A stretch of DNA of 48,639 nucleotides from a virus. The notes beneath the pieces were generated by a model, which did not search any database, was not told the origin of the DNA, and worked only from the letters and a program-made list of their open reading frames with translations. The stretch covers positions 1 through 48,639 of IMG/VR virus record IMGVR_UViG_3300033388_005224; one strand, 5' to 3'. The position numbers and the translations under genes were made by a program. Positions 8,621 to 47,586 of the stretch are shown one piece after another. Position 1 is the stretch's first letter. Each line of letters starts with the position of its first letter.

Positions 8621-11089
8621 TTAGATGACTCCGATTCCGAGCCTAATGAAGATCCAGTTGACTGGGAACGTTGGCTGTACTGCTACTCTGATGTTCCACT
8701 GACGTGGCTCAACTGGGTCTCTTTCAACCGTTAGGTCCCTGAAGTCTGTGATTAGCCTTCTTGAAAGGAAGCTCTGCATCATTGCTGTTGCACGAGCAAA
8801 GAGTGTCTGCTGGAAGGTTGGAGTCTCTGCCTTGCCAATGAATGGGTCGAATGCAGTTCTCATATCCTTAGCAATCCTGTCTCTGATGAAGACAACTGAC
8901 ATTTCCTCTTCCTCTGGAAGAAGTGAGTCTGTTGTTGTCTTACCGAAGATAACAAGACCGCCACCAGAAAGTGGTCTAAGCATTGCAATACCAGCCGCTG
9001 TAACATTCTCCTCAATGATTGGGGAGAAGAGCTTGTCTCTGGTAAGAGTAAAGCCGCCAAGTGTCTTGTTTGTGAGTGGCTCCTGAATAAGGTCTCTACC
9101 ACCGAACCAACCAGCTGCAGCTGCTGCCATGAAGAAGCCGTCTGCCTGAACTCTGTCAGCGCCAGTCTGAACGATTACCTCATCTGGGTAGAAGTAGAAG
9201 ACACGGAAAGAATCTCCGTAGTTATTCTGAACACCGTAATCTGTAAGGTCCTCAATATCTCCTGAAAGAATCTCAGAAACATCATCGCCCTGAATGCCCT
9301 CAAGAACACCGATGTCCTCAACAGCTGCAGGCTCTGTGCCGATAACATTCTCAGGTGTAAGGCCTCTGATTGCGCCAATCATAAGAACACGCTCACGCTT
9401 GTTCTTAATTCCGGACATGGTTTCAACGTGCGCCTTACCGTTGGAGAAGATTGCTGAGATTGTCTGAGATGGAAGTGGAACAACCATATCAACCTCAATT
9501 CTCTCCGCAGCGTCGTATGCTGAAATCCAGCCTACATCGAAGAAGTCTGCATCCCTTGTATCAACAAGCGTGCAGCGAAGTGACTCGCCAAGTGAAAGTG
9601 CAAGGTCATCTGTGAAGAGGATTCTTGAGCTTGATGCTGATGAATCTAGAACCTGGAACTCAACACCAGTCTCTGCTGTGAATCCACCTGGGTCAGTGAT
9701 TGTAACCAATCCGTTTGACACAGAGACAATTGCATATGTTCCATCATTACCAACACCAGAGTTCTCGATCCTTATTGAGCGTGTTGGAGATACATCATCA
9801 ATACCGAACTGAACAGTCTGAGATGAAAGTGTTGCAGTGGTTGCTCCAGTTACAACAAGCTCACCGTCTGTACCAGACTTCTGAACAGAGTCGTCTTCAA
9901 TTACTGTATAAGAGAAGTCATAAGCTGCACCGTAAACGAAGCCGAGTGGGTTCGATGTGATTGTTGGGTCGTAGAAAGCAACCTTGTTAGGAAGAATCTG
10001 TGACTCAACACCGGTAATTGGGTCTGTTACAAAGAAGTTGATGTTTGAATCAGCATCTGGAGTAACGCCAAGCGGAAGCTCGAATGTAAGCTCTTCAATA
10101 TCGGACTCGCCGTTTGAAGACTCAACAAGCTGGTAAGACTCTCTGCGTGGAAGCGGTGGAGCACACTGAAGTGCAAACACACCAGGAGTTCCGTTCGCAA
10201 ATGCAAGCTGAGCACCGAGAGACAGCCTATTGGAAAGAGATGGAGAACCATGTTTCGCAGTAAGCTGATTGATATCTGTAAAGAACTGAGGATCGTTTAT
10301 GTCGATCTCAGGTATGTAGTTCGCTGTTAGAGATTCGCCAACTCTTAGAGAGCCGCCAGAAACCTCGAATACAAATGAGTCACCTTCAACGAATGCTGTT
10401 GAACCTTCAGAAATGGCGAACTGAAGAACACCGTTGTTACGAGTCTGTCCATCTGACTGCCAAGTAATCTGATTACCATAACCATCAAGAACAACACCCG
10501 ACACCGTTCCTCTAACTACGAACTGTGCATATCCATCAATTGGATTTCCGTAGCCATCACGACGAACAGAGGTAACGCGAGCAGTCCAGGTTTCAGCAGG
10601 AGCATTCGGATCTAAAAGAGAAAGATTGGTTACGGTTCCGTTTCCTGTATTAGCACCACCTGGACGGAAGAGCTCTCCACCCTGATCTACAAGAGCTGCT
10701 CTTTGAAGCTCAACGCAGTCAGACTGGATATCAACTCTTGCATCATAACGTGAGTCAAAAGGATTGTCATCGATAGGAGACTCAAGAACTCTAAGCTCCA
10801 CTCCATTCCTAAATAATCTTGTACGATTTGGAATAAGTGGACCGATAGCTTGCTGTCCACCTAGGATGAAGTGTCTACCGTCTGGAGTTCCTGTTAAAGT
10901 ACAATCTGATCCGATGCCATCATTGCCGTTACCAACAGCAAGGTTAACAATTACTTCTTCACGATTGCCTTCGCCCATCAACACAGCAGTACGTGCTCCA
11001 GATGGAACTGCAACACCAGTTGTTAATGATTCAGTTTGTGTGTATACGCCTGGTACGGCGTTTCCTGCACCTGGAAAGTTAGCTGCCAT
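8621..11089 (-). CDS. Contractile tail sheath protein
   Basis: The N-terminus (FPGAGNAVPGVYTQTESLTT) is of the sheath type that begins with a PGVY element. The C-terminal domain carries the family's usual elements: a VVFIRDRIAKDMRTAF helix, a FLSRRLITDFRDL segment, and a last strand set ending QWNIRVAVQPTFPVNWIFIRL. At 822 residues it is longer than T4 gp18. The extra length lies in variable beta-rich insertions, roughly residues 100-260 and 330-520, likely exposed on the sheath surface. Three DGY tripeptides lie within about 40 residues near residue 180 (RRDGYGNPIDGY, then VVLDGYGNQ). A clear AGAGGA ribosome binding site precedes the ATG. It heads the sheath-tube-chaperone-tape order and is preceded by a 103-base gap that may hold a promoter. 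Confidence 0.9.
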   Translation of the reverse strand: MAANFPGAGNAVPGVYTQTESLTTGVAVPSGARTAVLMGEGNREEVIVNLAVGNGNDGIGSDCTLTGTPDGRHFILGGQQAIGPLIPNRTRLFRNGVELRVLESPIDDNPFDSRYDARVDIQSDCVELQRAALVDQGGELFRPGGANTGNGTVTNLSLLDPNAPAETWTARVTSVRRDGYGNPIDGYAQFVVRGTVSGVVLDGYGNQITWQSDGQTRNNGVLQFAISEGSTAFVEGDSFVFEVSGGSLRVGESLTANYIPEIDINDPQFFTDINQLTAKHGSPSLSNRLSLGAQLAFANGTPGVFALQCAPPLPRRESYQLVESSNGESDIEELTFELPLGVTPDADSNINFFVTDPITGVESQILPNKVAFYDPTITSNPLGFVYGAAYDFSYTVIEDDSVQKSGTDGELVVTGATTATLSSQTVQFGIDDVSPTRSIRIENSGVGNDGTYAIVSVSNGLVTITDPGGFTAETGVEFQVLDSSASSSRILFTDDLALSLGESLRCTLVDTRDADFFDVGWISAYDAAERIEVDMVVPLPSQTISAIFSNGKAHVETMSGIKNKRERVLMIGAIRGLTPENVIGTEPAAVEDIGVLEGIQGDDVSEILSGDIEDLTDYGVQNNYGDSFRVFYFYPDEVIVQTGADRVQADGFFMAAAAAGWFGGRDLIQEPLTNKTLGGFTLTRDKLFSPIIEENVTAAGIAMLRPLSGGGLVIFGKTTTDSLLPEEEEMSVVFIRDRIAKDMRTAFDPFIGKAETPTFQQTLFARATAMMQSFLSRRLITDFRDLTVERDPVEPRQWNIRVAVQPTFPVNWIFIRLGIGVI

Positions 11090-11192
11090 TTAGTCCTCTT
11101 TTATTCAAAACCTTTAGAATGCTAATACGGGTTTTTATAACCTACACTTATGTTTTCTTATGTATAGTTTACAATCCTATTTTTTAAGGGGC

Positions 11193-11987
11193 TTAGAGCC
11201 CTTCAAGCTCGTCAATGAGCTGAACTTGGGTATTTATGGTCAAGTTTGGAGATATCACTGGTGGATTCACTCCTAAGTTGCCAAATTCTACGCAAATATT
11301 GATAGCGTCCAGCATGGACTCTACTGGTATTTCACGCCTCCATTCCATCCTGACCTCTAAGGAAATGGAGTTTTTATATAATGGCTCTTGCTGTCTATCC
11401 TGAGTTTCTGAGGGGCCTGATGAGCTAACATTACGAATAGCCACGCCTGCCCTCAAAAGCTCCTCATATCTAATATCCTGAAGGAGCACCATTACAAAGT
11501 TTGTTAGTTCGTCTCTGGACTCAGAATCTCGTGCCCAGATATCAACAGAAACAGACCCCTCCCAAGCTCCTGCAAATACATAATGAGTAGGAGTTGTAAA
11601 GAGGCTTTCATTTCCATAACCGTCAATCACCTTTGTGACATCATACTTAACAGTTTCTTTATTTCGGTTTATGGAGATTGGTACATATTTAACCCCGCCC
11701 ATTTTCACTAATAGAGCAGGATAGAAAATTACGTCATGCCTGAATCTTTCGCCTATGAAGATCCTTGTCGTTTCATCATCATTGAAACCGGCATCAAGAG
11801 GTACATCTGTAAGGTCAGGTGTGTAAGGGAATCCGTACTGATCGCTTACATAATGGTAGTAAGAGTCCTTTGCGAACTCGTCTCTCAGGATACCAATGAT
11901 GATATCCTTCACAACATTGGTGTTCGTATTCTGAACAACGTTGTGAATCTGATTAAGATCAGATCTTGTGAAAGAGCCTGTAGTCAT
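11193..11987 (-). CDS. Tail terminator / tail completion-like protein
   Basis: This 264-residue protein lies immediately upstream of the sheath gene, where contractile-tailed phages often keep the tail terminator or sheath-capping protein. It begins with a helical segment (DLNQIHNVVQNTNTNVVKDI), then a Tyr-rich loop, and has central strands around THYVFAGAWEGSVSVDIWAR followed by helix ELTNFVMVLLQDIRYEELL. That alpha/beta order, with a strand, a helix and a late EVRMEWRREIPVE strand, fits terminator-like folds in general, but I recognise no specific family signature. It carries one DGYGN motif near residue 125. No good ribosome binding site is visible just before the ATG. The function is inferred mainly from position. 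Confidence 0.45.
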   Translation of the reverse strand: MTTGSFTRSDLNQIHNVVQNTNTNVVKDIIIGILRDEFAKDSYYHYVSDQYGFPYTPDLTDVPLDAGFNDDETTRIFIGERFRHDVIFYPALLVKMGGVKYVPISINRNKETVKYDVTKVIDGYGNESLFTTPTHYVFAGAWEGSVSVDIWARDSESRDELTNFVMVLLQDIRYEELLRAGVAIRNVSSSGPSETQDRQQEPLYKNSISLEVRMEWRREIPVESMLDAINICVEFGNLGVNPPVISPNLTINTQVQLIDELEGL

Positions 11988-12881: not shown

Positions 12882-15206
12882 TTAGAAAGTATAATACACT
12901 GCTACATTAAAAAATGTTAATCTTGTATTGGCTCCAGCACTCATGTTACTGAAATCAAACTTCAAACGAGTATTTTCTACACTTTGATATAAATCTGTAC
13001 CAGTAAATGCCTTATTGAATACAACATTTTCACCTACTAAATAATCCTCAAGTACAAATGACTGAGTATCTAGTAAGGTTCCACCTCGATAATAATCGAT
13101 ATCAAGATCTCCATTAGAAAACACTGCATTAGAAACCGTAAACGATCCTTGATAACCGTATATTTTAGCCCCTGGTGGAAGCGCCTCCCACAAATGAAGA
13201 TCAATTGCAAAGGTAATGTTAGAGCCGGTATTATTCCACTCCATTCTCCAATGCCCAACAGCATCTTGTGCAATACTTGCAAGCTCGTAAGAGGTTGTAT
13301 TGCCATTTTCCCAAAGAATAGGATCAGAAAAGCTGTCCTTTCTGCCGAAAGATCCTTTCAAACCTAGTCTCCTAGTTTGAACATCATTAATGTTGCCAAA
13401 AATATAATCAGCATCTTCTTGAAACGCTGCTGTTGTAATGGTGTTACCGAATGAGTCTGAATCACCTTCATCAAGAAGTGATGAGCTTAAGTAGTTTCCT
13501 GTGCAAACAGTTCTAGACCCATTGCCTTCAAGAGCTATGAAGACATTACATACAGTGTCAACTTTGTATAACTTATTGTTAACAACCTGATTTGGCTCAT
13601 CTGGCGGGCTGCTTGCTGATGATGTATCTATTTCAATTCCAATATTTAGGAATCTCACCGAATTACCAGAGCAATGCGCTCTAGCCTCTACTGCTAGAAT
13701 ACCTGTGAGGTAAGAGGTATCTGCAATCTTTGTTTCCACAGTGTTCTCTGAAATAAATGCATTTGAGCACCCGTCAACAAATATTCCAACATCTCTAAAA
13801 TCTTCACCAAAATCAGTAGAGAAATCAGTATCATTATACATTACAACATTATTGGAAACCTCAAATCTCTCGACAAGTGTATTACCAAATAATCTAACAT
13901 AAGAGCATCTGTTTCTGTTTACAGATACTGATTGGTAAGATTGAGAGAAAGCTGTGAAATTAAATCTGCCAAAAATATCGACAGACCCAATGGCCAAAGC
14001 CTGATTGTCGCTAACGGATAAATGAGAGTCTTTAACAATAAGTCCATCTCCAACGCCAAGATTGAACCCTATTAACCCATCCTTAATCACATTACCCGAA
14101 ACTGATGCGTTGAATAAAACCAATCCAGCTGGAGTTACATCAATAGTATTACAAGATAAAACAATACTCTGACCATCCTTTATGGTGTTATCTTTAATGG
14201 ATAGGTTCGTTAATGACAGGTCAGTAGCAGCCACTCCTATAGCGCAATTCAAGGCATTTGCAGAAGACTCAAAAGTGCAATTGCTAACTGAAACATTCTC
14301 TCCAGTTTGAGATGCTGTTGAAGAGTAAAGCGCAACGTATGGCGCTCTCTCTATCGATGAAGAAGAGAATGTACACCCATCAACAGTTACATTTCCTAAT
14401 AATCCTCCACTTTCAGTTATATTTATGCACGCCAATCCAAGATCCAAATTTGAATTTGGATTAGCTGAAACAACTTCGGCATTATATTCAAATACCAAAT
14501 CCTCAAACTTAACCCCATGACTTGCAAGGAATCCGTTTTGTGAATTGACAATAATTCGTCCACCATCACCCTTGACAATCAAAGTAGTAGTATCAGTAAA
14601 CCCAACTAAATCAACCTCCTCATCAATAGTGAAGTCTCCATTAACCTTAACAGTAATGGATGTGGCATCTGAGTTAGAGCAATAAGTCTTAACCGCCTCA
14701 AAAGACGTAAAGGAACTTATTCTAGAATCATCTGATATTGTAAAATCTATAGCCGCTGTTTGATTTGATATATTATTTCTAGCATCTGTAACTGAGTTTA
14801 CTGTAACAGAAGCTATGGTAACATTAGCTACAGCAATTATCGTCAAATCCTTTCTAAAGTTTGTTAGCTCATCAAATGTAACAGATGGTATGTAGTAGTT
14901 ATCAATATCAGGGAGCCTTCTCGCAAAAAAGTGCTGCTTAGTTAATGTTACAGGTATTGCCTCTAACAAGTCCTTATCATTAACACAAATAGCCCAATTA
15001 AGCGTTGTTACATCTCCGCCACCAGTATCCTGAACAATTTCTGGTATAGAAACTGAAGATGCCGACATTGTTGACATATGACCATTCACAAGAGCTATAC
15101 CGCCATTGAAATCAAGCGTTCCTGGCTGAGATACATTCTCACCCTTGAATGTAAAGCCCTGTTGTAAGGTCAACCTCGGAAACATTTCCAAACTCTCTAA
15201 GGTCAT
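12882..15206 (-). CDS. Tailspike-like protein with right-handed beta-helix
   Basis: This protein of about 774 residues has a central region (about 190-560) with the repeating pattern of a right-handed parallel beta-helix. Successive rungs read VSNCTFESS, LSIKDNTIKDG, ASVSGNVIKDG, VSVNRNRCSYV, EVSNNVVMYN and AFISENTVETK. Such helices are typical of phage tailspikes that bind or cleave surface polysaccharide; no catalytic residues can be assigned by eye. The C-terminal 150 residues form a separate beta-rich domain, possibly for trimerisation. The N-terminal 100 residues probably attach to the virion. The start is uncertain: the ATG at 15206 overlaps the upstream gene by 68 bases without a clear ribosome binding site, and the ATG at 15185 is an alternative. 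It ends at the shared terminator. Confidence 0.7.
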   Translation of the reverse strand: MTLESLEMFPRLTLQQGFTFKGENVSQPGTLDFNGGIALVNGHMSTMSASSVSIPEIVQDTGGGDVTTLNWAICVNDKDLLEAIPVTLTKQHFFARRLPDIDNYYIPSVTFDELTNFRKDLTIIAVANVTIASVTVNSVTDARNNISNQTAAIDFTISDDSRISSFTSFEAVKTYCSNSDATSITVKVNGDFTIDEEVDLVGFTDTTTLIVKGDGGRIIVNSQNGFLASHGVKFEDLVFEYNAEVVSANPNSNLDLGLACINITESGGLLGNVTVDGCTFSSSSIERAPYVALYSSTASQTGENVSVSNCTFESSANALNCAIGVAATDLSLTNLSIKDNTIKDGQSIVLSCNTIDVTPAGLVLFNASVSGNVIKDGLIGFNLGVGDGLIVKDSHLSVSDNQALAIGSVDIFGRFNFTAFSQSYQSVSVNRNRCSYVRLFGNTLVERFEVSNNVVMYNDTDFSTDFGEDFRDVGIFVDGCSNAFISENTVETKIADTSYLTGILAVEARAHCSGNSVRFLNIGIEIDTSSASSPPDEPNQVVNNKLYKVDTVCNVFIALEGNGSRTVCTGNYLSSSLLDEGDSDSFGNTITTAAFQEDADYIFGNINDVQTRRLGLKGSFGRKDSFSDPILWENGNTTSYELASIAQDAVGHWRMEWNNTGSNITFAIDLHLWEALPPGAKIYGYQGSFTVSNAVFSNGDLDIDYYRGGTLLDTQSFVLEDYLVGENVVFNKAFTGTDLYQSVENTRLKFDFSNMSAGANTRLTFFNVAVYYTF

Positions 15207-17916
15207 TAATATGTGTAACAGAGTTATCTACGAGCACACACCCGGCAAGTCTTAGATTTTCTTGATTTGTTGCAAGAGTATCGAAAACCTCAATATCAAC
15301 GTACCTCTGATCGGCAGTGGACATAACCAAAGTTCCTGGACGCTGAATCTCTTCAAAGAATTCAATTTCAATGAAGTCAACATCTGTTGAGTCATAGAAC
15401 CTTGTTGGCACATCCTTTCTAGCTCTAACCACTCTACCGAAATCAGTAATATCATCAGTTCCGGTTACTCTCTTTCCTAAATAACCGTCAAACTCTCCGG
15501 TAGTAGTATCATAGTCAGTGACCATGAATCTAACGAATCTGTTTGTTCCAGTAGCTCCATCATCAATAAAGCCCTTGAGCTTTGGTGATACCTCTGTGAT
15601 TCTGAAACCATTCAGGGTTCCGAGAAGAGATGGAGTCTCTGCCTGGAGAGGAAGCCTTGCTCTTTCATGAGTAAAGGTCTTACCCTCCTCATTCGCAAAT
15701 ACTTCATGATACCTTGAGAAAGGATTAACGTTAATTGTATCAATAACGTTAGCTTGATTAAATCCTACCGAATCCTCTCCAAAGTGAAGTCTTACCTGGA
15801 GTGGCGGCGTTGCCGATGCACCAATAGGCGCACCAGAAGCATGGATAGAGTTCACAACAGTGATCGATGTAGTAGCATCCACGCCTGGACAGCAATCAGT
15901 AAAGTTAACCTCTTTAATTACAAACCTTCCATAATCAACCTCATTGAATAGAGCGTCTCCTCTATCAATTGCAGGCTGTATAGTAATCGTTTTTCCAGGC
16001 TTAAGCTCCGCTCTAGCAAGGTTTCCATTTACCTGATAGGTTGTCTCTACAGTAGTAGCTCCAACTGGCACACGACTTGAAACGTACCCATCCCAGTATG
16101 GAGTGGTTGGAGTAGTGAGATATGTTGTAGCAAATGAATCTCTAGAGATTCCGTTAACTGAGTAATTTCTCTTATCAAGAGGGAAGTGTACGACTGTTGG
16201 ATATGTCGCTGCGGCCAATGCGGAATCATATGAAGACTGGTAATTAATAGATGCAACAGAAGCTTTAGAAAAACCAAATCCAAGAGCGTCTCTTGAGTCT
16301 ACCGCATCACCTATAACGTTGTTTACATATACACCGGATACTAAAGAACCAGCTGTAAGACTTCCGTTAATGATAGAGAACGCCGCTCCATTAATGGAGT
16401 CAGTCATCATGATTCCAAACTCACCATCCTGCTGGTAAGCCATGAATCTATAATTGTAACCACCAGCCCTAAGAGCATTATTGGTAGCATTAACTACTGA
16501 ATCTATTGTATACTTGCCTGGTGTGATGCCCGCATTTCCGGTGACATCAATCGCTGGAAGATCAATTGCAGCTTCAGCTGGATTACCAGTGGGGTAAAGA
16601 GCTAAATATAAACTGTAGTGAGTTGAATCTAGTTGAGTCGGGTCGAAACCGATACCCAAAACTCTAGCAGCCTTTGGGTCTCCAACGATAAGAGATGATG
16701 TAATCGCTGGATCAATATCGTTGTTCGCAGCAGCTACTGCAAATGTGCCCCAGTTATTAGTTTCAAATCTCTTCCTATCAATCCTTACAGATGCAGCATA
16801 TCCATCTGCTGGCCAAAGGTTTGTTCCATTGATTCTAACAACCCACTCTAAACCTGGGTCATGCCTCTTAGATTCAACATTGAAAACTCCCTCTATTCCA
16901 TTTCCGTAGTTAACTCTTACTACATCACCAACAGCAACCTTAGCAAACTTCTCATCGAAAAGGTTGCTAGTATTATCCGGATTGAAAACAATAATGTCAT
17001 CACCAGTAGTATTATTATCTACAGGAGAGGTGATTGGGCAGTTTACAAGATACGCAGACGCTGATGTTGGAGGTATAATGTTGTATGAATAACCATCAAC
17101 ATTTCCAACAAGGACAGATCTAGACTCCCTAGGTACACCATTTGTATGCTGATTTCCCTGGTGCTGCTGGATAACGATAACATTAGCGTCATCAATTGCA
17201 TCAAGAGACTTCTGAACAGTATCCGCAGATTGCGGTAACACTGTAAAGTTAGATGTATCCACAAAGATACCAGAAGCTGTATGCGCACCACCATTTGAAT
17301 TAAGCTCGTGTGCTACAAAGACATCATTAATTTCAAGAAGAGCCTCAGCAACAGTTGTTGCTGCTCTTGGATCTCCGTTCTTATCAAGAAGACCGGTCCA
17401 GTTGAAAGATGGGTCTCTTGGGTCATTAGGAGTCGCATTTATATCAATGTGAGAAGCTACATGGCGTCCTGCAGTTGAACCATCTGAGAGAACAACAGCA
17501 CCTGCAATATGTGAGAGAAGGTCAGCGTTTGTAGTTGCCAAGAATGCTGCGGTTGAATTTAGTAGATTTGAGTTTGCAGTAATCTGAGCATTCAAATCAA
17601 CTGTATTGAAATCAAGAGATAACTTTGACTCCTCGATACCAGCATTCGCACCCACCTGAGGGTTATCAATTGGTAGTGTCGCTAGCCCTACAGATGTAAG
17701 TGCGGAAGCTTTGATGGTTCCATTTGGGTTAATGGAAACATCAAGCCTATTCACAACGGAAGAAAGGGAGCCGGATGGATTAGTACCCAGCTCTCTTTCG
17801 ATTGCAAAGACAGCAGATCTAAGCCGATTTATTGCCTCTGTGCCAAGCTCAGAAAGGTTGTCATCAATTCTTATGATGGTTGTATCATCATCTATTTGAA
17901 AGGGATATACTGTCAT
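15139..17916 (-). CDS. Large tail or baseplate trunk protein
   Basis: This 925-residue protein begins with a helical segment (INRLRSAVFAIERELG, then TNPSGS) that I associate with large virion trunk proteins. A Ser/Asn-rich linker and a long beta-rich body follow. The body has a Leu/Ala helix near 190-205 and His-rich turns (QQHQGNQHTNG). The domains look like a chain of small beta-sandwiches. Four DGY tripeptides are present (NVDGYSYN, WPADGYAAS, YWDGYVSS, FDGYLGK). It stands between the holin-like gene and the beta-helix spike gene and overlaps the latter, so it may be the trunk or adaptor on which the spike sits. A GGAAAG ribosome binding site supports the ATG. No enzymatic motif is seen. 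Assignment as a virion protein is by context and composition. Confidence 0.5.
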   Translation of the reverse strand: MTVYPFQIDDDTTIIRIDDNLSELGTEAINRLRSAVFAIERELGTNPSGSLSSVVNRLDVSINPNGTIKASALTSVGLATLPIDNPQVGANAGIEESKLSLDFNTVDLNAQITANSNLLNSTAAFLATTNADLLSHIAGAVVLSDGSTAGRHVASHIDINATPNDPRDPSFNWTGLLDKNGDPRAATTVAEALLEINDVFVAHELNSNGGAHTASGIFVDTSNFTVLPQSADTVQKSLDAIDDANVIVIQQHQGNQHTNGVPRESRSVLVGNVDGYSYNIIPPTSASAYLVNCPITSPVDNNTTGDDIIVFNPDNTSNLFDEKFAKVAVGDVVRVNYGNGIEGVFNVESKRHDPGLEWVVRINGTNLWPADGYAASVRIDRKRFETNNWGTFAVAAANNDIDPAITSSLIVGDPKAARVLGIGFDPTQLDSTHYSLYLALYPTGNPAEAAIDLPAIDVTGNAGITPGKYTIDSVVNATNNALRAGGYNYRFMAYQQDGEFGIMMTDSINGAAFSIINGSLTAGSLVSGVYVNNVIGDAVDSRDALGFGFSKASVASINYQSSYDSALAAATYPTVVHFPLDKRNYSVNGISRDSFATTYLTTPTTPYWDGYVSSRVPVGATTVETTYQVNGNLARAELKPGKTITIQPAIDRGDALFNEVDYGRFVIKEVNFTDCCPGVDATTSITVVNSIHASGAPIGASATPPLQVRLHFGEDSVGFNQANVIDTINVNPFSRYHEVFANEEGKTFTHERARLPLQAETPSLLGTLNGFRITEVSPKLKGFIDDGATGTNRFVRFMVTDYDTTTGEFDGYLGKRVTGTDDITDFGRVVRARKDVPTRFYDSTDVDFIEIEFFEEIQRPGTLVMSTADQRYVDIEVFDTLATNQENLRLAGCVLVDNSVTHINDLREFGNVSEVDLTTGLYIQG

Positions 17917-29831: not shown

Positions 29832-29849
29832 GCCCTTCAATATATCAAC

Positions 29850-35838: not shown

Positions 35839-37283
35839 TATGTAGTCCTAATTACACTTAGCCGTGATCCATTAGAAGCAAATCCTAGAGTCCCACCAGC
35901 TACAACATTTGTTCTAATTCTTACCTTGTCATTAGCATTAATGTTTAAAGCAATAGTTGCTGATAAGGTATCCTCATCATTTACAGAATTTCTATGGTAG
36001 CCAAAGCTTCTAGTTCCAAGCACCTCAAAAAACCCACCACCCTGATTTCTCTCCAAGAAAGCAGTTGATGAAGTTCTTGAATTTGTAGATTGAGTTAATG
36101 AAACGTCATAACTAAAAAGATAAACACCAGCCTGAGTTATAGTTACTTCACTTGCTGCAAGTACAATGCTTCCAGTAGTTATAGCTGAAACGTTTGTTAA
36201 CGGAACAGTTATTGGGGTGGTTGTAAATGTTGTACCAGATGCATTCAAATAAAATGAAGCTAAATCATTATTAATTGCTGAACCCCCACCAGTTGCATCT
36301 ATTGTAATATCTACTTCATCATTAGCAACATCATCTGCAATAGTCATTGTGATGTTCGAACCCTCAATGAAATTCAAGCGTCTTCTTGTCCCAGTATCAG
36401 TTCCAGAATTTTTACGAACAGTAACCTCATTAGCTCCAGCAACAGAAGCTACATTAGCTCTAAAGAATGCTGCAACCCTATTGCCAGTTATATTTCCTGG
36501 ACCAGTTACCGTGAAGAAGTTAATCCTATCACCTGCAGATATAGCCACAGGAGTACCTAATGTAATAAAAGAATCTTGAGCGTTTGACGTAATGGAGGCT
36601 CCTGAATCAGATCCATTTACTTCAAGCCTTACAGTTGCGGAACCTCCACCTGCAAGGTTTAATGTTAGAGCATAACACTCACATGAAATTGGTATTACAA
36701 CACCTCCAGTATTTGGGGTATCATCTCCATTACCAAATGCCCACTCATAAGAATTATTTCCTAAGTCTCCATTCTCCTCTGCCCAGATTGCAAACGTAGT
36801 CCCATTTGCTCCAAGTTCAGCATCAATACCGGAGAGGTGAGCAGATAGATTATCTACATCACTCACCTCCGGTGGAGAAATGTCAGGATTATAGTTAATA
36901 GGAGTAAAATCAATACTAATCTGATCTCCATCAATTTCATCACCACCACCAAGTATATGTGATGTAGCATGAGAAGATGAAGCGTAACCATCCAAAGCTA
37001 TTTGAATATTTTCGATTCTGTCAGTGTTATAATCAATCTTCTCTTCGCCTGGTGGTCTCAGTGCTGCCTCTGAATCCTCTTGACCTAGGGTTCCTGATCC
37101 ATCATTAATGAGAATGTTGCCAGCTTGCACCTGGGCAAATAAATCAGCTGACTCTTGCACTTCCCATACAAATAGAGTTTCCGTGAGATCAAAGCTTCCA
37201 TTACCTGGAATAGAAACTCCAATGTCATCAAGGTCTATTTGACCTGCCACCTGGTTCTCTGCTATAAGGACCCTGGTAGTCAT
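35838..37283 (-). CDS. Fibre protein with IAEN-type anchor and C1q-like head
   Basis: The N-terminal 78 residues of this 481-residue protein are the shared anchor (VLIAENQVAGQIDLDDIGVS, TLFVWEVQESADLF, INDGSGTLGQEDS). A short linker with ALDGYASSSHATSHILGG follows, then a middle beta domain (YEWAFGNGDDTPNTGG, then VRLEVNGSDSG). The C-terminal 140 residues look like a C1q/TNF-type jelly roll: YLFSYDVSLTQSTNS, then AFLERNQGGGFFEVLGTRSF, then LSATIALNINANDKVRIR. Such heads commonly trimerise and bind receptors. AGGAGA gives the ribosome binding site, and the gene lies 12 bases after the paralogous 426-residue gene. It is probably exposed on the virion surface. Confidence 0.6.
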   Translation of the reverse strand: MTTRVLIAENQVAGQIDLDDIGVSIPGNGSFDLTETLFVWEVQESADLFAQVQAGNILINDGSGTLGQEDSEAALRPPGEEKIDYNTDRIENIQIALDGYASSSHATSHILGGGDEIDGDQISIDFTPINYNPDISPPEVSDVDNLSAHLSGIDAELGANGTTFAIWAEENGDLGNNSYEWAFGNGDDTPNTGGVVIPISCECYALTLNLAGGGSATVRLEVNGSDSGASITSNAQDSFITLGTPVAISAGDRINFFTVTGPGNITGNRVAAFFRANVASVAGANEVTVRKNSGTDTGTRRRLNFIEGSNITMTIADDVANDEVDITIDATGGGSAINNDLASFYLNASGTTFTTTPITVPLTNVSAITTGSIVLAASEVTITQAGVYLFSYDVSLTQSTNSRTSSTAFLERNQGGGFFEVLGTRSFGYHRNSVNDEDTLSATIALNINANDKVRIRTNVVAGGTLGFASNGSRLSVIRTT

Positions 37284-37295: not shown

Positions 37296-38576
37296 TTATG
37301 CTCTTTTCTTATAACGTACAACTATCTGTACGCTGGTAGTTGTATTTCCACCAGCCTGATTTCTGAACGACATAAGACCACCAGCAAAGTCAATATTTGC
37401 AGCTGTATTCTCAGTAAGACCAGCCGTAGAGTGTGCCAATGTACCAACTACAGATCCATTCACAAGAACCTCAAGAGTTGCAGCATCAGAGTCAACTCTC
37501 GTAATACCTATGTAAGTAATCGTTCCCTGCTCAACAGGAATACCTCTTGTTGTCGCATTAAGCACTAGGTTACCAACGCCACGATAAAACACAGCAGCAC
37601 CAGTGTTACCATTCCTACCTGCGGTAACATTCTCTGTTGCTACTGCCAGCCACTTTGATCGTGATGCATCATAACGCATCTCTTCATTTAGTGTTGTGTT
37701 GTAGTACCTATCACCAGCAGATGGGGGAGGGCTAACAGGATCTGCTGCAGTAGTTCCATAATGTCTAACATTTTGAATTACAACAGTACCATCTGTTCCA
37801 GTAATAAAATCTCCAGCTGTCATGGAGATATCTGTACCACCGGTTGCGTTACCTTCAGCAAGAACTTCTGCCAGAGTAGGGGCATCAGAAGTTTCTGTCA
37901 CCCAGCCTACACCGCCTGATCCATCAGGCTTAAGAACTAGAGCAGTATCGCTCTCAGAGGTGCCAAGATTGGAAATCTCCAGAGCATCAGATCCCCCTTG
38001 CTCATGTGTAGAGGCGTGCGTTGTTGGAGTTTGCGGATCGTCTAGCAAACCACTTAAGCCTGTAACATTTATCTCATCAGCACCTCCATCCTCATGAGTG
38101 GCAGCATGAAGCGTTGGAGTTCTTGAGTCTGATGAACTATCTAAAGTTGCGTCTGTTACTACAGCATTAAGTTGAGCAAGAGTACCTGAACCTATATTAG
38201 CAATTGAAGTACTGTGAGGATTAGCTGTATCAGTAATGTGATTATTTAAATCAGTATCAGTGGCATAGCCGTCTAAAGCCGTAGATATGCTTGTCTCAAG
38301 ACTAGCAATATCATCAGAGTTCTGTTCAATACCGTCTTCTCCAGGAGGAGTTACAACAAGAAGAGAGTCCTCCTTGCTAAGCGTTGAGCTACCATCGTTG
38401 ATTAAAATTTCATCATTTTGAATAGCTTGAAATAAATCTGTTGATTCCTGTATCTCAAAAACAAAAAGAGTAGCTGTTAAATCAAAACTGCCAGATGCTG
38501 GCACTGCAATGCCAATATCTTCAAGCAACACCTCTGAAGCAGTTAAGTTTTCAGCTATAAATATTTTATTTGCCAT
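37296..38576 (-). CDS. Fibre protein with IAEN-type anchor and SPPPSAGD-type head
   Basis: The anchor of this 426-residue protein (IFIAENLTASEVLLEDIGIA, TLFVFEIQESTDLF, INDGSSTLSKEDS) matches the 300- and 481-residue proteins. A thin shaft-like region follows with HITDTANPHSTSIANIGSG and repeated HAATHEDGGADE, HASTHEQGGSD turns, typical of phage fibre shafts. The C-terminal 155 residues (DPVSPPPSAGDRYYNTTLNE, EMRYDASRSKWL, LEVLVNGSVVGTL, GLMSFRNQAGGNTT) are close to the C-terminus of the 256-residue protein, about 60-70% identical by eye. AGGAGA precedes the ATG. It is most likely a trimeric fibre. Confidence 0.65.
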   Translation of the reverse strand: MANKIFIAENLTASEVLLEDIGIAVPASGSFDLTATLFVFEIQESTDLFQAIQNDEILINDGSSTLSKEDSLLVVTPPGEDGIEQNSDDIASLETSISTALDGYATDTDLNNHITDTANPHSTSIANIGSGTLAQLNAVVTDATLDSSSDSRTPTLHAATHEDGGADEINVTGLSGLLDDPQTPTTHASTHEQGGSDALEISNLGTSESDTALVLKPDGSGGVGWVTETSDAPTLAEVLAEGNATGGTDISMTAGDFITGTDGTVVIQNVRHYGTTAADPVSPPPSAGDRYYNTTLNEEMRYDASRSKWLAVATENVTAGRNGNTGAAVFYRGVGNLVLNATTRGIPVEQGTITYIGITRVDSDAATLEVLVNGSVVGTLAHSTAGLTENTAANIDFAGGLMSFRNQAGGNTTTSVQIVVRYKKRA

Positions 38577-38722: not shown

Positions 38723-39343
38723 TTAGTATGGTTTAATAAAAAGCTTTGTTCGATCTATCTCTGCAAGGCTCGTAGTAGGAGATGGGCCTAGAGTCTTCTC
38801 ACCTCTGGATACCTCAATATTGAATTCAACATGATCACCATCTTTTAAGTCTATAATTAGCTCTCCGCCTACTTTCATTGGGAACTCGCTTATTCCACAA
38901 GACTCCGCTATAATGCTCGTATTACCATTAATAGTCTGCAGCAACCTAACTAATGAAACGGAATTGTCCCCTTCAAAGCTTACCTTAGCTTCTCCATACC
39001 ATTTCAACAAATAAGTTCCTCCAATCATTAAACCGCAATCTAATTCAAGAGCCTCTTGGTTAGTGGTAGAGTTTGCTGTAACTAGGGAGCCGGTGGCATT
39101 CTGTGATGTTTCTGAAAAATCTCCGCCCTGATGATTAGAGCATATACTATTAATTAAAGACTGTTTAGCGACATCAAACTCTAACAATGACGAAAACTGA
39201 ACGTAACCATCATCATTAAAAAATAAACTAATATCACTCAGTCCAGAATCAGTTATCTCTCTTTGCAATATTAAATTATTAATGCTACCTAAAACTGAAA
39301 CAAATGCAGAATTTGAGACTTCATATGTGTATATCATGTTCAA
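38723..39343 (-). CDS. Virion protein with C1q-like C-terminal domain
   Basis: The N-terminal 80 residues of this 206-residue protein (MIYTYEVSNSAFVSVLGSIN, LFFNDDGYVQFSSLLEF) are a small alpha/beta segment. The rest resembles a jelly roll: EALELDCGLMIGGTYLLKWY, then EAKVSFEGDNSVSLVRLLQT, then GGELIIDLKDGDHVEFNIEV. It lacks the IAEN anchor of its neighbours, so it may be the head of a split fibre or an independent decoration. It is separated from the 426-residue gene by a 146-base AT-rich gap with a TATAAT-like element on the minus strand, perhaps a promoter. One DGY is present. Confidence 0.5.
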   Translation of the reverse strand: MNMIYTYEVSNSAFVSVLGSINNLILQREITDSGLSDISLFFNDDGYVQFSSLLEFDVAKQSLINSICSNHQGGDFSETSQNATGSLVTANSTTNQEALELDCGLMIGGTYLLKWYGEAKVSFEGDNSVSLVRLLQTINGNTSIIAESCGISEFPMKVGGELIIDLKDGDHVEFNIEVSRGEKTLGPSPTTSLAEIDRTKLFIKPY

Positions 39344-40301: not shown

Positions 40302-41072
40302 CTATGCTCTTCTCTTATATTGGACAATAATTTGAACATTAGAGGTAGTATTACCTCCAGCCTGATTTCTGAAAGACATTAGTCCAGAATCGAAATCAAC
40401 ATTTATCGATGTATCCTCAGTTAAACCGGAAGATGAGTGCGATAGTGTTGCAATAACAACTCCATTAACTAATACTTCTAATGTTGCCAAATCTGCATCA
40501 GAACGACTAAGGGCAAGATAAACCAAGGTACCCCTTCTAACTGGAAAACCTCTATCTGTAGCGTTTAATACCTGACCATTAATCCCTCTGTAAAATATAC
40601 CACCACCAGCATTGCCTGAACGACCCGCCTGCAGTTCCGAATTATTTGTAGTCAGCCATTTTGACCTAGTACCATCATACCTCATTTCTTCTTCTAAAGA
40701 AGTATTATAATACATATCACCAGCAGAGGGAGGGGGTGAAATAGGATCTATAGCAGAGGATGAGTAGCTTCTAGTATCACTAAAATCTAAACCATCTTCT
40801 GTAGAGTTTACCTTAACTAACCTATCAGCATCGCCCGTGTATGATGATGGAGTATCGTCAAGAGTTAAGAAATAACCATCAGTACCAACGGGAGAAAAGG
40901 TTGGAGTAAGTGAAGTTAAAAGCCACCATTGATTTGTATCAAGTTGCCTGAAAACCTTACCCACATCAGAAGAGTCATAAGAATAACTGAAACGTTCGAT
41001 TTCATTATCAAACTCTATATCATGAAGCTTATGAACACGCTCTTGTAATCTATGTAATGGTGAGCCGCTCAT
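40302..41072 (-). CDS. Fibre protein with SPPPSAGD-type head
   Basis: Residues 30-75 of this 256-residue protein (SSDVGKVFRQLDTNQWWLLT, then PTFSPVGTDGYF) carry the DVGK...DT...L...P...VG fibre module also seen in the 303-residue protein. The C-terminal 160 residues (AIDPISPPPSAGDMYYNTSL, EEEMRYDGTRSKWL, ATLEVLVNGVVIATL, GLMSFRNQAGGNTT) are paralogous to the C-terminus of the 426-residue fibre, ending in QYKRRA versus RYKKRA. It thus combines one gene's neck with another gene's head. GGAGG lies inside the preceding gene, and the start overlaps its stop as TAATG. A receptor-binding or decoration role is inferred. Confidence 0.6.
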   Translation of the reverse strand: MSGSPLHRLQERVHKLHDIEFDNEIERFSYSYDSSDVGKVFRQLDTNQWWLLTSLTPTFSPVGTDGYFLTLDDTPSSYTGDADRLVKVNSTEDGLDFSDTRSYSSSAIDPISPPPSAGDMYYNTSLEEEMRYDGTRSKWLTTNNSELQAGRSGNAGGGIFYRGINGQVLNATDRGFPVRRGTLVYLALSRSDADLATLEVLVNGVVIATLSHSSSGLTEDTSINVDFDSGLMSFRNQAGGNTTSNVQIIVQYKRRA

Positions 41073-41647
41073 TACTCATCCTCCTGAGGATTGACAATTA
41101 ATATACCCTGATCGTTTACCAACCAGCCTTGATTAGATGTAACAGGCTGTACAACCTCAAAAGTTTCACCATCTACAGAAAATAAAACTTGACCAATACA
41201 ATCTGGAGCATTTCCAGTTGCTGCATCAAGGTCCTCTAAAACTTCTTGAAGATTGTAGCCATCAGAGTTAGATAAATTAGAGGTATCAACTCCAATCTTA
41301 GTAGCTCCAGCAGGGTGATAAAAACTAGCTGTGCCACCGATAGAGTCTGGTATTGGCTCAACGACCTTAAAAGTATTAACTGGGTCTATAATATCTTCAA
41401 CTAAATAACGACCCTCAGCTGCTCCAGATATTATTTGAACAATGTCTCCAATCTGAAGAGATGCATCAACATTATCCAAGCCATCATAAGAATTTGGAAC
41501 ATCTATAACTACATTACCGTTTGCTGCAGTAGTGGATATCAAATTAACAGTTCTATAAGATGTAGAATACCCATCCGATGCCAACTCCTCAGCATCAACA
41601 AAATCTTGATCTCTTACATCTTCTTTTGATATCCTGTTATCGCTCAT
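41072..41647 (-). CDS. Virion-associated protein, function unknown
   Basis: This 191-residue protein has a small beta domain (YRTVNLISTTAANGNVVIDV, then LQIGDIVQIISGAAEGRYLV, then DPVNTFKVVEPIPDS) resembling the SH3-like insert of the 500-residue protein (GMSAESVGRFLEISGAST), and an acidic end. It has two DGY tripeptides, SDGYSTSY and SDGYNLQEVLEDLD; the latter type of element (DGYT plus helix) also occurs in the 500-residue protein. It is coupled at both ends, with ATGA to the lysine-rich gene and TAATG to the 256-residue fibre gene. A connector between anchor and fibre is possible. No enzyme motif is seen. Confidence 0.45.
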   Translation of the reverse strand: MSDNRISKEDVRDQDFVDAEELASDGYSTSYRTVNLISTTAANGNVVIDVPNSYDGLDNVDASLQIGDIVQIISGAAEGRYLVEDIIDPVNTFKVVEPIPDSIGGTASFYHPAGATKIGVDTSNLSNSDGYNLQEVLEDLDAATGNAPDCIGQVLFSVDGETFEVVQPVTSNQGWLVNDQGILIVNPQEDE

Positions 41648-42472: not shown

Positions 42473-42486
42473 AAGATATATATCTT
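42473..42486. repeat. 14-bp perfect palindrome containing GATATATA
   Basis: AAGATATATATCTT is self-complementary and sits in the short gap before the zinc-ribbon-like gene. Its core (AAGATATATATC) recurs at 7882-7893 before the tail chaperone gene, and GATATATA occurs in two further gene-start gaps. It is a candidate phage promoter or activator site. Confidence 0.3.
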
Positions 42487-43987
42487 AGGCTTCCAGGATA
42501 ACAAAGTTTATATGGTCATTTGCCCTAATTCTTCGATAAGTGGTAATTTGAGTGTTTGAGGTCTCCTCATAATCATCACCATTGGCAACCGTTCCAGGAT
42601 CCCGAAGAACTCCTCTCCAGAAAACCATCATCCCTGCACCATTATTAGTACCATCCTGTTGATAAGTTAAACCTCCAGGTACGGTAAGCACTGAACCCGG
42701 AGGTAGAGGAGCGCCATTTCTTGTGATAACTCTAGTTACATTTGTTCCACTAGATGAAATAGAATCTGCAAGAAGCTGAAGAGTATCTGTAATTGTATAA
42801 CCATCAGCATTATCTAATATTGGTCCAGTATATGTTCTATCACCAATTTGTTCATTAAGAGTGTTTAATGCTTCTACAACTGACGGGGTGGCATCTGGAA
42901 GATCCGAAAATGGGAAGAAGTCTGTAGTATTTGTAAGTAGACCATTTAAATCAGTATCACCATCATTAACGCCAACAACTTCCTGCAAGTCATCGATTCT
43001 TTTATTAGCAGAAGAGTCTCCAACGATACCATTAACTAAGGTAACTCTAAGAGCATTCTCATCCATAGCATCAAGGCACTCTCTGTAACCATAAAATAAA
43101 TCTACCTCATTAGGCTGTCCGGCTTCCCAAACATAAGGTATTGAAGTGGATATATCATCACCCTCAGGTACAGACCTGAATTCAACCTCTACTGAATCAG
43201 GAGAAGTTGATCCTCCAGCTCTAGTCCTACCAATAATTCGATTACCGGCATTTGGACCAGTCAAAACATATAAACTTAATGCACTATAGCCATCAATGAT
43301 TTCTACAAATGTACCAGAATCATTACCAGCATCTGCTCCATCTGATATTGGAACACCAGTTCTATCAACCGCATCTGCATGCTTTAAGTTACCAGTGTCA
43401 TTTAATGTAACAAAAGCATCAGAGACTGCAACAGCTACATCTTCAAACTTTCTATTAACAACAAAAGACTTAGCATCAGTTGTTTTACCTGCAAGGTTTG
43501 ATAGGTTTGCATCTACAGGAGTTCCCTGATCTGTACATCTGAGATAAGTTGGTATTGCCTGATCGAAACCAACGCCCTTTATAGCTGCACGATCAGACCT
43601 TTCATAGTTAATGTCATCCTCTAATGAATAAGCATTACGCTCTGTCCAAGATATAGATCCATTATTTGCATCTGTTACTGCAGATGGGTTTGCAATTTCA
43701 ACACTTGTAGCACTTATGAATTCAGTAATTAGAAAGGAGCCATTATTAGCAGCAGTTGAAGCTCCTGAAATCTCTAAAAATCTACCAACTGACTCAGCAC
43801 TCATACCTGTTAGGCCAGATACTACAACAGTAGCACCCACAGTGATAGATGCTACGACACCGCTTTGTCCAGCTATAGCCCTACCAAGACAAGCAGACTC
43901 GTCAGCTAATGGTAAAGTGTCAGTTTGAAAGAATGAGCCATTAATATCAAGCTCTTGATCTAATGCGTTTTTTCTAAATGAAGTCAT
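42485..43987 (-). CDS. Large virion structural protein
   Basis: This 500-residue protein has several beta domains. Residues 40-110 form one small domain (VVASITVGATVVVSGLTGMS, then VGRFLEISGAST, then NNGSFLITEFISATSVEIAN), a pattern used in repeated domains of phage baseplate or head-fibre proteins. A middle section has DGYSALSLYVLTGPNAGNRI. A helical linker follows (DATPSVVEALNTLNEQIGDR) with DNADGYTITDTLQLLADSI. The C-terminal 85 residues form a head (LTVPGGLTYQQDGTNNGAG, then MVFWRGVLRDPG) that ends in a hydrophobic strand. The head resembles, at a distance, the heads of the 256- and 426-residue fibres (FYRG). It is probably a capsid or neck fibre. AGGTATT gives a ribosome binding site. 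Confidence 0.5.
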   Translation of the reverse strand: MTSFRKNALDQELDINGSFFQTDTLPLADESACLGRAIAGQSGVVASITVGATVVVSGLTGMSAESVGRFLEISGASTAANNGSFLITEFISATSVEIANPSAVTDANNGSISWTERNAYSLEDDINYERSDRAAIKGVGFDQAIPTYLRCTDQGTPVDANLSNLAGKTTDAKSFVVNRKFEDVAVAVSDAFVTLNDTGNLKHADAVDRTGVPISDGADAGNDSGTFVEIIDGYSALSLYVLTGPNAGNRIIGRTRAGGSTSPDSVEVEFRSVPEGDDISTSIPYVWEAGQPNEVDLFYGYRECLDAMDENALRVTLVNGIVGDSSANKRIDDLQEVVGVNDGDTDLNGLLTNTTDFFPFSDLPDATPSVVEALNTLNEQIGDRTYTGPILDNADGYTITDTLQLLADSISSSGTNVTRVITRNGAPLPPGSVLTVPGGLTYQQDGTNNGAGMMVFWRGVLRDPGTVANGDDYEETSNTQITTYRRIRANDHINFVILEA

Positions 43988-43998: not shown

Positions 43999-44631
43999 TT
44001 AAATATTTGGATTTACAATAGCGTAATCTGCTACTATTTCAGATCTTGGATTAGGGACAAAAGATATAAAAGTTATAGTATCATAACCTGTACCGATACC
44101 TCCAGATTCTGATATGATAAAATCACAGTTTTGTATTAACCTTCTACCATTATGCTCAACTATGATATGAAATTCATTATCTTTAAAATTACCTTCAAGA
44201 AACTTATCCCCAGGAGCTACGGTAAATGTTCTATTTGAATTATTTCTAGGACCAATCATAGAGAATTCGTTTCTCCAAAGATATGGAACCTCAGCTGAAA
44301 CATAACCATCAAAGGTCGCGTCCAAGCCCTCTGTAATTCCTGCATCTATAAGAAATTGCCTATGGCATGGATCAAACTGTAGAAGATCAATATTCGACTC
44401 TATAACTCGAATTTCACCTGCAACAATCTTGATGTAAAGCTCACCTTTCAAAAGAGAGTGTCGTATATCAGCTTCGGAGACATATGGAATCTCCATAAGA
44501 TCTCTGGACATGCCGTTCTTAATTGGGTACTTAAATATACGAATGCGCTTGCCACCTTCCGCAATATTCTCAACACGAAATACGGTGGGGCACTGCTTTT
44601 GATACCAAGTTTCAAACCCTACTGCTGGCAT
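43999..44631 (-). CDS. Virion structural protein (head or neck)
   Basis: Residues 15-95 of this 210-residue protein hold a distinctive block: CPTVFRVENIAEGGKRIRIF, then KYPIKNGMSRDLMEIPYVSE, then ADIRHSLLKGELYIKIVAGE, then IRVIESNIDLLQFDPCHRQ. I have a general memory of similar SEADI..SL.KG segments in structural proteins of large phages. The SxxxG helix is also roughly like the anchors of the IAEN-type fibres, so this may be part of their docking site family. The C-terminal 100 residues are beta-rich (FDGYVSAEVPYLWRNEF, then EFHIIVEHNGRRLIQNCDF, then ADYAIVNPNI). It follows the coiled-coil gene by 9 bases, and AAAGGATT gives a ribosome binding site. Confidence 0.5.
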   Translation of the reverse strand: MPAVGFETWYQKQCPTVFRVENIAEGGKRIRIFKYPIKNGMSRDLMEIPYVSEADIRHSLLKGELYIKIVAGEIRVIESNIDLLQFDPCHRQFLIDAGITEGLDATFDGYVSAEVPYLWRNEFSMIGPRNNSNRTFTVAPGDKFLEGNFKDNEFHIIVEHNGRRLIQNCDFIISESGGIGTGYDTITFISFVPNPRSEIVADYAIVNPNI

Positions 44632-44640
44632 GTAATCCTT

Positions 44641-45678: not shown

Positions 45679-45699
45679 GTAAATTATCGCTGTTAGCTA

Positions 45700-46710: not shown

Positions 46711-46798
46711 ATTGTTTATCCTATTATAGTTAAGTGACTGCCCGACTTACGCCAACAATCTGGTTTATTAGTTTAATATAGGCCACTAAAAGCCGGAA

Positions 46799-46828
46799 AA
46801 GCGAAGCCTTAACGAAAAGGCCTCGCTT
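46799..46828 (-). terminator. Intrinsic terminator between decoration and capsid genes
   Basis: On the minus strand AAGCGAGGCCTT and AAGGCTTCGCTT form a 12-bp stem (one G-T wobble) around TTCGTT, followed by TTCC and then a short T run. It lies 8 bases after the decoration-like gene. Capsid transcription then needs read-through or its own promoter in the 88 bases that follow. Confidence 0.7.
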
Positions 46829-46836
46829 CAATACTA

Positions 46837-47586
46837 TCAGATCATTGCTGGTCCGAACTCAATGAGTGCCTCAGTGAATACCTGCTGCTGCGCTACACCT
46901 GGAAGGCCAACTGGGGAGTTAGCTGCAGATGCAAGAGAGATTGGAGTAGTCACGAGAGAACCGTTAGTCTCAAAGTTGAGGAAACGTCCCATGATAAGTG
47001 GGTTTGCATCAGTTGAATCATTAACAACTGCACCACCAGCATTTGGTGTAAGAAGTCCACCGTTAGCGAATGCGTATAGTGGGTCACCAATGGTGAGAGT
47101 TGGGTTAGATGTCTGAAGACCCGTTGTTGCGTTCTGATCGGTTGCATCAAGAGTAACTGCGTATGTACCTGGCTTGGTCCAAAGAGTTACCTTTCCAGAT
47201 GCTACTGCTGTGTGTGGTCCAAGGAAGGTTCCAGTAGAACCTGGTCCAAAGGACTCCTGACCAACAGTTGCGCCAAGAACAGAGCCGAAAAGAGTTCCGT
47301 AGCCAACGCCGCCATCATCAGTAAGACCAACTGGTCCTGTAACCTCAGTACCAGAGCCACCGTTGTTAAGAACTGTGGAAACTACTGGGCGAGTTCCTGG
47401 AGGTGTACCAACATAGCCATCACGACCATCAGCATCTGCTGCTGCAAGGTCAGAACCAACTGCAACACCTGTAATGATAGCGCACTCGCCACCCTTGATT
47501 CCTGTAGCAACGTCTGCAACGATTGTATCAACAGCGTCAAACTGTCCGAGAGGCTGAACGCCTGCCTGCTTTAAAATTAATGCCAT
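46837..47586 (-). CDS. Capsid decoration or stabilisation-like protein
   Basis: This 249-residue protein lies directly upstream of the capsid gene, a standard place for decoration proteins. It is Gly/Thr/Ala rich and beta-rich: ALILKQAGVQPLGQFDAVDT, then GIKGGECAIITGVAVG, then ASGKVTLWTKPGTYAVTLDA, then NPTLTIGDPLYAFANGGLLT. The late part (FLNFETNGSLVTTPISLAS) carries a capsid-like strand. Codon choice is uniform, like the capsid gene. AAAGGAAA gives a ribosome binding site. It carries one DGY (GRDGYVGT). A terminator follows, so expression is insulated from the capsid gene. Confidence 0.6.
   Translation of the reverse strand: MALILKQAGVQPLGQFDAVDTIVADVATGIKGGECAIITGVAVGSDLAAADADGRDGYVGTPPGTRPVVSTVLNNGGSGTEVTGPVGLTDDGGVGYGTLFGSVLGATVGQESFGPGSTGTFLGPHTAVASGKVTLWTKPGTYAVTLDATDQNATTGLQTSNPTLTIGDPLYAFANGGLLTPNAGGAVVNDSTDANPLIMGRFLNFETNGSLVTTPISLASAANSPVGLPGVAQQQVFTEALIEFGPAMI

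Follow-up and report, generated by a model that had tools for sequence, protein, structure and literature searches.

The tripeptide Asp-Gly-Tyr (DGY) is strongly over-represented in the virion proteins of a virus fragment of 48,639 nucleotides, i.e., positions 1 to 48,639 of the IMG/VR record IMGVR_UViG_3300033388_005224 (below referred to as the window), and in those of the huge phages to which it is related. The motif is strict and restricted to virion proteins, and it is almost certainly under functional selection. A glycosyltransferase (GT) gene is invariably linked to the genes that are richest in the motif. We propose, with somewhat less than even confidence, that a dedicated phage GT acts on D-G-Y across most outer virion proteins to yield a self-made sugar coat, where the acceptor sites (sequons) are gained and lost whole.

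Gene calling in the window yielded 46 predicted proteins with a total of 14,306 amino acid residues (aa), in which DGY is found 30 times in frame, in 17 proteins, compared to 2.63 expected from the composition of each protein. In 1000 shuffles of the same proteins, a control that had been proposed in an initial annotation of the window, the mean number was 2.8 and the maximum 10. Ranked among all tripeptides DGY is found at the top (P 1.2e-21), followed by RRR (P 6e-5). Near-variants are rare (DGF 3, DGH 1, DGW 0, NGY 1, DAY 1, EGY 1), and Tyr follows 30 of the 113 DG pairs (27%). The initial annotation had counted about 30 DGY in 17 proteins against about 3 expected, with few DGF, DGW and DGH and no DGY in the capsid protein, and these numbers were reproduced, as were those given for the sheath (3), trunk (4), HxH (5), 354-aa (3) and patatin (1) proteins; only the fraction of DG pairs followed by Tyr, stated as about one third, is slightly lower, while the excess itself stands. 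The coding (minus) strand contains the nucleotide sequence GAYGGNTAY 33 times and the plus strand 0 times; 30 of the 33 are in-frame DGY codons, and the codon spelling is mixed. A motif at the DNA level, already disfavored in the annotation because codons vary freely, is therefore rejected; DGY is a protein-level motif. The proteins that harbor it are listed below in window coordinates, together with a sulfotransferase-family protein that is discussed further on; all are encoded on the minus strand (-).

8621..11089 (-): tail sheath, 822 aa; three DGY, at 10550-10558, 10529-10537 and 10478-10486 (residues 178, 185 and 202)
11193..11987 (-): 264-aa protein adjoining the sheath; one DGY, at 11616-11624
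15139..17916 (-): 925-aa trunk-like virion protein; four DGY, at 17089-17097, 16798-16806, 16084-16092 and 15481-15489
22059..23651 (-): 530-aa HxH fiber-like protein; five DGY, at 23568-23576, 23094-23102, 23085-23093, 22965-22973 and 22794-22802
24295..24987 (-): sulfotransferase-family protein, 230 aa; PF00685 E 9.7e-5, PF13469 E 1e-3
25454..26416 (-): 320-aa protein; one DGY, at 26012-26020
26427..26768 (-): 113-aa protein; one DGY, at 26694-26702
31874..32716 (-): 280-aa protein; one DGY, at 32411-32419
33718..34689 (-): patatin-like phospholipase, PF01734 E 7e-33; one DGY, at 34063-34071
34774..35838 (-): 354-aa structural protein; three DGY, at 35704-35712, 35314-35322 and 35239-35247
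35838..37283 (-): 481-aa fiber-like protein; one DGY, at 36984-36992
37296..38576 (-): 426-aa fiber-like protein; one DGY, at 38265-38273
38723..39343 (-): 206-aa protein; one DGY, at 39203-39211
40302..41072 (-): 256-aa protein; one DGY, at 40872-40880
41072..41647 (-): 191-aa protein; two DGY, at 41567-41575 and 41255-41263
42485..43987 (-): 500-aa virion protein; two DGY, at 43286-43294 and 42797-42805
43999..44631 (-): 210-aa protein; one DGY, at 44302-44310
46837..47586 (-): decoration-like protein adjoining the capsid gene; one DGY, at 47413-47421 (residues 56-58)

The relatives that share the capsid are huge phages with contigs of up to 481 kb, and among annotated phages Bacillus phage G is the nearest, with a distantly related capsid (52% over the aligned region). 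A comparison with related phages had also been suggested in the initial annotation, and in relatives with a related capsid DGY is found 354 times compared to 42 expected. In most large contigs that were read, no other tripeptide is as over-represented as DGY (observed/expected 74/7.4, 89/9.2, 102/20.9, 47/12.5, 81/21 and 25/6.4); in G009 it ranks second (48/15.3). In G011, a contig without tail genes, the excess is not clear (13/8.6); this contig was dropped as a negative control because the tail block is missing from it. Pooled regions of T4, P-SSM2, phiKZ, lambda, SPO1 and GAP32 hold 33 DGY, where 15.3 are expected, i.e., an approximately 2-fold excess; among these unrelated phages, T4 (L093; 11/2.8) and phiKZ (L095; 8/2.35) display a mild excess, while phage G near its capsid gene shows 2/1.3. 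An equal excess in unrelated phages, which the annotation had considered as an argument against a specific role of DGY, is thus not seen (~2-fold vs 8-13-fold), although there is a weak excess in general. Phages may commonly show a mild twofold excess, but not a tenfold one, and the 8-13-fold excess is a property of this clade of huge phages. Little or no DGY is found in the sheath relatives that are most distant (38-39% identity) and in the HxH relative L291, and a search for a larger low-DGY outgroup record for L291 found none. Apart from the capsid region, Bacillus phage G harbors about 12 GAYGGNTAY in ~20 kb at 324-345 kb (L218), in large hypothetical genes.

Within the clade, DGY is confined to the particle. 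In families conserved among the large relatives, 260 DGY fall in the virion block, where 23.5 are expected, while core genes outside this block in the same genomes hold 13 compared to 18.8, and avoidance of the motif outside the virion is not clear; NGY, EGY and other variants are near expectation both inside and outside the block. Of the 119 core families, 95 have no DGY, and 90% of the core total is found in 13 families. The carriers include two giant baseplate/fiber-like proteins (46 and 39 DGY in seven genomes) as well as the trunk, HxH, sheath and decoration-like proteins. The capsid protein holds 0 DGY in 73 orthologs.

The same pattern is seen in the families of the individual window proteins. 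The trunk family holds 39 DGY across 8 genomes, the HxH family 40 in 8 orthologs, the 320-aa family 8 in 8 genomes and the 264-aa protein, conserved in 8 of 8 relatives, 7 in total. In the nearest relative, G001, the DGY of the window are all kept in the trunk (4/4), HxH (5/5), 354-aa (3/3, plus one extra there), 264-aa and 320-aa proteins. In broader sets of orthologs, 32 DGY were found where 1.15 are expected (191-aa protein, 13 orthologs), 62 where 2.6 are expected (500-aa protein, 20 orthologs) and 17 where 1.8 are expected (210-aa protein, 36 orthologs). Relatives of the 113-aa protein (26427-26768) have up to 5 DGY in ~40 residues, seen in the G008 and G015 orthologs; there, the records L102 and L110 (G008_65065 and G015_100060) display dense runs such as TDGYYTDGYYDGYPIDGYS, while the window protein has only one DGY. 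In the 426-aa protein, weak PHROG matches to virion structural protein and tail fiber span the DGY. The DGY of the patatin-like phospholipase is present as annotated; the site reads DGH in G001 and is probably incidental.

The window sheath matches PHROG 279 (tail sheath, E 1e-11) over residues 593-818, and all three of its DGY are found in the N-terminal domain, outside this conserved C-terminal sheath domain. In the decoration-like protein, D56 G57 Y58 is present in 55 of 55 aligned sequences and encoded by 13 different spellings among 70 sequences. A structural model of this protein places the motif in a predicted loop (43-64), and a fold search with the model gave no significant match. In a low-confidence model of the L054 ortholog of the 500-aa protein (predicted local distance difference test score, pLDDT, 59), too uncertain to base conclusions on, most DGY are found in turns or loops.

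The requirement for each of the three residues is strict. Around related capsid genes the observed and expected numbers are 331/39 for DGY, compared to 48/46 for DGF, 18/12 for DGW, 30/40 for NGY, 24/30 for EGY and 36/41 for DAY; in the surroundings of 75 HxH gene relatives they are 943/71.5 for DGY, compared to 80/78 (DGF), 65/87 (NGY), 37/45 (EGY) and 47/55 (DAY). Triplets equivalent to DGY in a turn (NGY, DGF, DGW) do not share the enrichment, i.e., their ratios are near 1 in the relatives. At the third position of the enriched motif Tyr is not replaceable by Phe or Trp, which is compatible with the phenol hydroxyl group as acceptor but does not prove it. The flanks are nearly free in 493 distinct seven-residue contexts, where only Lys and Arg are scarce. 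A calcium-loop signature as in EF-hands or dockerins (Asp/Asn at -2 and -4) was not found in these contexts; Asp is below background at both positions (0.4 and 0.6).

The manner in which the sites evolve was analyzed at homologous loops with flanks that are 50-85% identical; these comparisons share descent and the percentages are descriptive. At such loops, DGY is found whole in 74%, as two of the three residues in 4.8% and as one or none in 21%, while for control DGX triplets in the same alignments the corresponding numbers are 29%, 44% and 27%. Intermediates with two of three residues are thus ~9-fold rarer for DGY than for other DGX triplets, and DGY is replaced by unrelated triplets (LDGYGN/LDANGN, TWDGYQP/VWEAGQP, LADGYSF/RNMATTV). 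Homologous sheaths have 1-3 DGY each at differing positions, and both in the sheath and in the 500-aa protein the number of sites is held while positions shift. This all-or-none turnover with unrelated replacements argues for a recognized linear motif rather than a fold, and the alignments indicate selection at the level of the motif, with turnover of sites. The DGY-bearing sheath domain (window 10337-10699, sheath residues 131-251) recurs with 38% identity in a fiber protein of G008 (G008_59233-61242), as a mobile, putatively decorated domain.

A search of genes that are conserved in the vicinity of the DGY blocks identified a GT4-type enzyme of ~378 aa, which matches PF13439, as well as a sugar-nucleotide epimerase and two GT2 enzymes (~235 and ~276 aa). 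In the fully read genomes the GT4 gene adjoins, or is at most two small genes away from, a DGY-rich gene for a protein of 1.0-1.3 thousand residues, and in every relative that covers the region GT4 is found at or near the most DGY-rich baseplate/fiber genes, usually accompanied by the two GT2s and by sugar-nucleotide genes. Of the 34 clade records, 25 have the enzyme, compared to 0 of 10 other phages; the DGY-rich neighbor is present in 24 of 24 GT4-positive records that were tested and in 0 of 9 clade records without GT4, i.e., the latter nine are fragments missing the region. In 46 viral GT4 loci, 530 DGY are found compared to 51 expected, and 41 of these loci have both GT2s. The G018 locus also encodes a UDP-GlcNAc 2-epimerase as well as an RmlD-like reductase and additional GT domains. 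The best solved relatives of the GT4 profile are generic glycosyltransferases (7mi0, 5i45), and relatives of GT2a include GalT1, GmaR and SunS, which glycosylate proteins or peptides. Among bacterial GT4 homologs (21-28% identity), none with DGY-rich neighbors were found, except in L294, a short Thioploca-labelled contig with a GT4 of 44% identity and 10 DGY in a 452-aa frame, which appears to be a phage belonging to the clade. The last gene of the window, cut at the contig end, is in G001 located roughly 20 kb from GT4, and the copy belonging to the window is expected past the contig end. In G026 (165175-166292) GT4 is in two overlapping parts with a TGA, i.e., a recent break, an intron or an assembly error, and DGY codons are still numerous in this contig, with 85 hits to the motif on one strand.

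These data are consistent with D-G-Y being a short acceptor sequon for a phage-made enzyme. The requirement for Asp, Gly and, apparently, the Tyr hydroxyl, together with free flanks, loop positions, restriction to the particle and turnover as a unit, resembles the behavior of a glycosylation sequon, and the invariant GT beside the richest DGY carriers is the natural candidate for a reader; the reader and the acceptor, as well as the identity of the sugar and its benefit, are inferred. In such a mechanism, the tyrosine hydroxyl groups in exposed loops of the tail, baseplate, fiber and decoration proteins would be O-glycosylated, initiated by the conserved GT4 encoded near the most DGY-rich baseplate/fiber genes, and the glycan would be extended by the neighboring GT2s using sugar nucleotides that are partly phage-made. 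The particle would then be sugar-coated at release, with tens of modified positions in each set of structural proteins, and the coat may mask it from recognition, stabilize the fibers or tune adhesion. A covalent modification of any kind at the DGY tyrosine is, in our judgment, reasonably probable; for glycosylation by the GT4/GT2 cassette, where the link to the enzyme is one of guilt by association, we see the chances as evenly balanced.

The initial annotation had considered DGY as a docking, folding or modification site. The notion of a recognized site (modification or docking) is supported by the strict triad, the free flanks, the all-or-none turnover and the virion restriction, while that of a folding site is disfavored: NGY, DGF, DAY and EGY are not enriched, and homologs hold unrelated triplets at the same loop. 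The same observations, together with the rarity of two-of-three intermediates, render it quite improbable that DGY is a turn- or loop-stabilizing element of beta-rich virion proteins, even if the motif is found mostly in turns and loops of the models and is in mild excess in T4 and phiKZ. An origin of the excess in homology, i.e., in a few repeated domains without any function of the motif itself, would account for the sheath domain that recurs in the G008 fiber protein. This explanation is already largely refuted by the 493 distinct contexts, in which flanks are not shared, and by the gains and losses at homologous loops, and we assign it very little weight.

As regards docking, DGY could be a non-covalent recognition motif, similar to RGD, for a host-surface or matrix molecule or for a docking virion protein, with the GTs serving host glycans or phage DNA. 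Ligand motifs, too, are typically strict triads that are multivalent, placed in loops and free in their flanks, and covalent chemistry at DGY is itself a proposal. However, a shared receptor or binding domain was not found, a diverse clade would have to share one partner, and the invariant GT neighbor would be left without explanation, which makes this possibility an unlikely one; the conserved GT cassette points to modification (glycosylation) rather than docking. A role of the GTs in DNA glucosylation of the T4/SPO1 type is unlikely because the thymidylate-synthase family (PF00303) gave no match in G006, G009, G018, G020 and G028 (433-481 kb), while T4, SPO1 and phage G do match. The apparent dependence on the Tyr hydroxyl would also fit a sequon for another modification, i.e., sulfation, phosphorylation, nucleotidylation or cross-linking, possibly via the sulfotransferase-family protein of the window, the gene of which is close to the five-DGY HxH gene and has a syntenic ortholog (55% identity) in G001. 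Tyrosine sulfation of the TPST/RaxST type would call for such an enzyme in every carrier of the motif, but neither the remaining fully read genomes nor 73 further HxH loci, which have an equal DGY load, yielded an ortholog. The sulfotransferase was therefore rejected as a general DGY reader, and a tyrosine modification other than glycosylation is improbable. The substrate of the sulfotransferase may be a glycan or some other molecule. The protein has a stretch resembling the 3'-phosphoadenosine-5'-phosphosulfate (PAPS) loop, SYNHSGDFWVRYM; a weak sulfotransferase match in G020 was by eye an ordinary P-loop protein.

Several points weigh against glycosylation by the GT cassette. As a fragment, the window stops short of the cassette. 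Motif and cassette are found together in one related clade, such that a single ancestral event may explain their co-occurrence, and the low-DGY relatives (L291, L449-L451) are too short to reveal whether the enzyme is missing from them. Some viral GT4 loci without the GT2s still keep DGY, the choice of the initiating GT among several is a guess, and we know of no matching solved GT that glycosylates tyrosine. Furthermore, exposure of DGY rests on two models, one of which is of low confidence.

A number of other genes were noted in the window and its relatives. A small conserved protein (23652-24194, (-)) adjoins the HxH gene in all eight genomes, and its relatives have an HExxH-like stretch (HEITH, HEMTH, HEIVH), possibly that of a zinc peptidase. 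At 21160-22023, and at neighboring positions in the relatives, endonuclease genes of one family are found, in the relatives as repeated insertions around the HxH gene in both orientations. A class-V aminotransferase (28746-29840, (-)) is encoded among the virion genes, as is the patatin-like phospholipase (33718-34689, (-)), which several relatives have too. A TubZ/FtsZ-like tubulin (L128:18299-19666 in G018) is conserved in seven clade genomes.

If the glycosylation proposal is correct, a short and strict sequon for tyrosine glycosylation could be read from nothing but the sequence, and the glycan coat would be a trait of an entire clade of giant phages. Modified sites would be predictable from metagenomes, the enzyme and the tripeptide would constitute a compact pair for putting sugars on tyrosine, and the purpose of phage particle glycans would become directly testable. 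Even with another chemistry, a tripeptide that is selected as a unit over ~15 unrelated virion proteins is unusual.

Glycosylation of virions as such is not new. For a strict tripeptide running through the whole set of particle proteins we found no description in the open-access literature, where "DGY motif" was not found together with phage, and hits to "Asp-Gly-Tyr" were irrelevant as judged from title and abstract. DNA glucosylation of the T4 type also employs phage GTs, but requires hydroxymethylated bases, and the enzyme family is absent from the five contigs of 433-481 kb mentioned above. The general protein O-glycosylation of Bacteroidota uses a short sequon, D-S/T-hydrophobic, i.e., also a three-residue acceptor motif led by Asp, there in exported proteins; in contrast to the DGY case, the acceptor is Ser or Thr and the system is cellular and periplasmic. 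In the tyrosine O-glycosylation of bacterial S-layers, the glycans are assembled on a lipid carrier and then transferred to a few Tyr (PMC2943079). That system resembles the one proposed here in the sugar on the Tyr hydroxyl, the self-assembling surface protein and the several sites per protein; it differs in the lipid-carrier glycans and, as far as the passages cited here go, in having no D-G-Y sequon, whereas a cytoplasmic enzyme that uses nucleotide sugars is suggested for the clade. In the "moraphage" lineage of large aquatic phages several core GTs are conserved, the role of which is given as unknown (PMC12619734). Conservation of several GTs in a lineage of huge phages is thus common to both, while no sequon is reported in the passages on moraphages. 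In mycobacteriophage virions, capsid and tail-tube subunits are reported to carry glycans at their C-termini (Freeman et al. 2023, cited in PMC12619734). Glycans on particle proteins, proposed for the clade, and implicated phage GTs are what the two have in common; the mycobacteriophage glycans are C-terminal and include the capsid, whereas the clade has an internal tripeptide that is absent from the capsid and spread over ~15 virion proteins.

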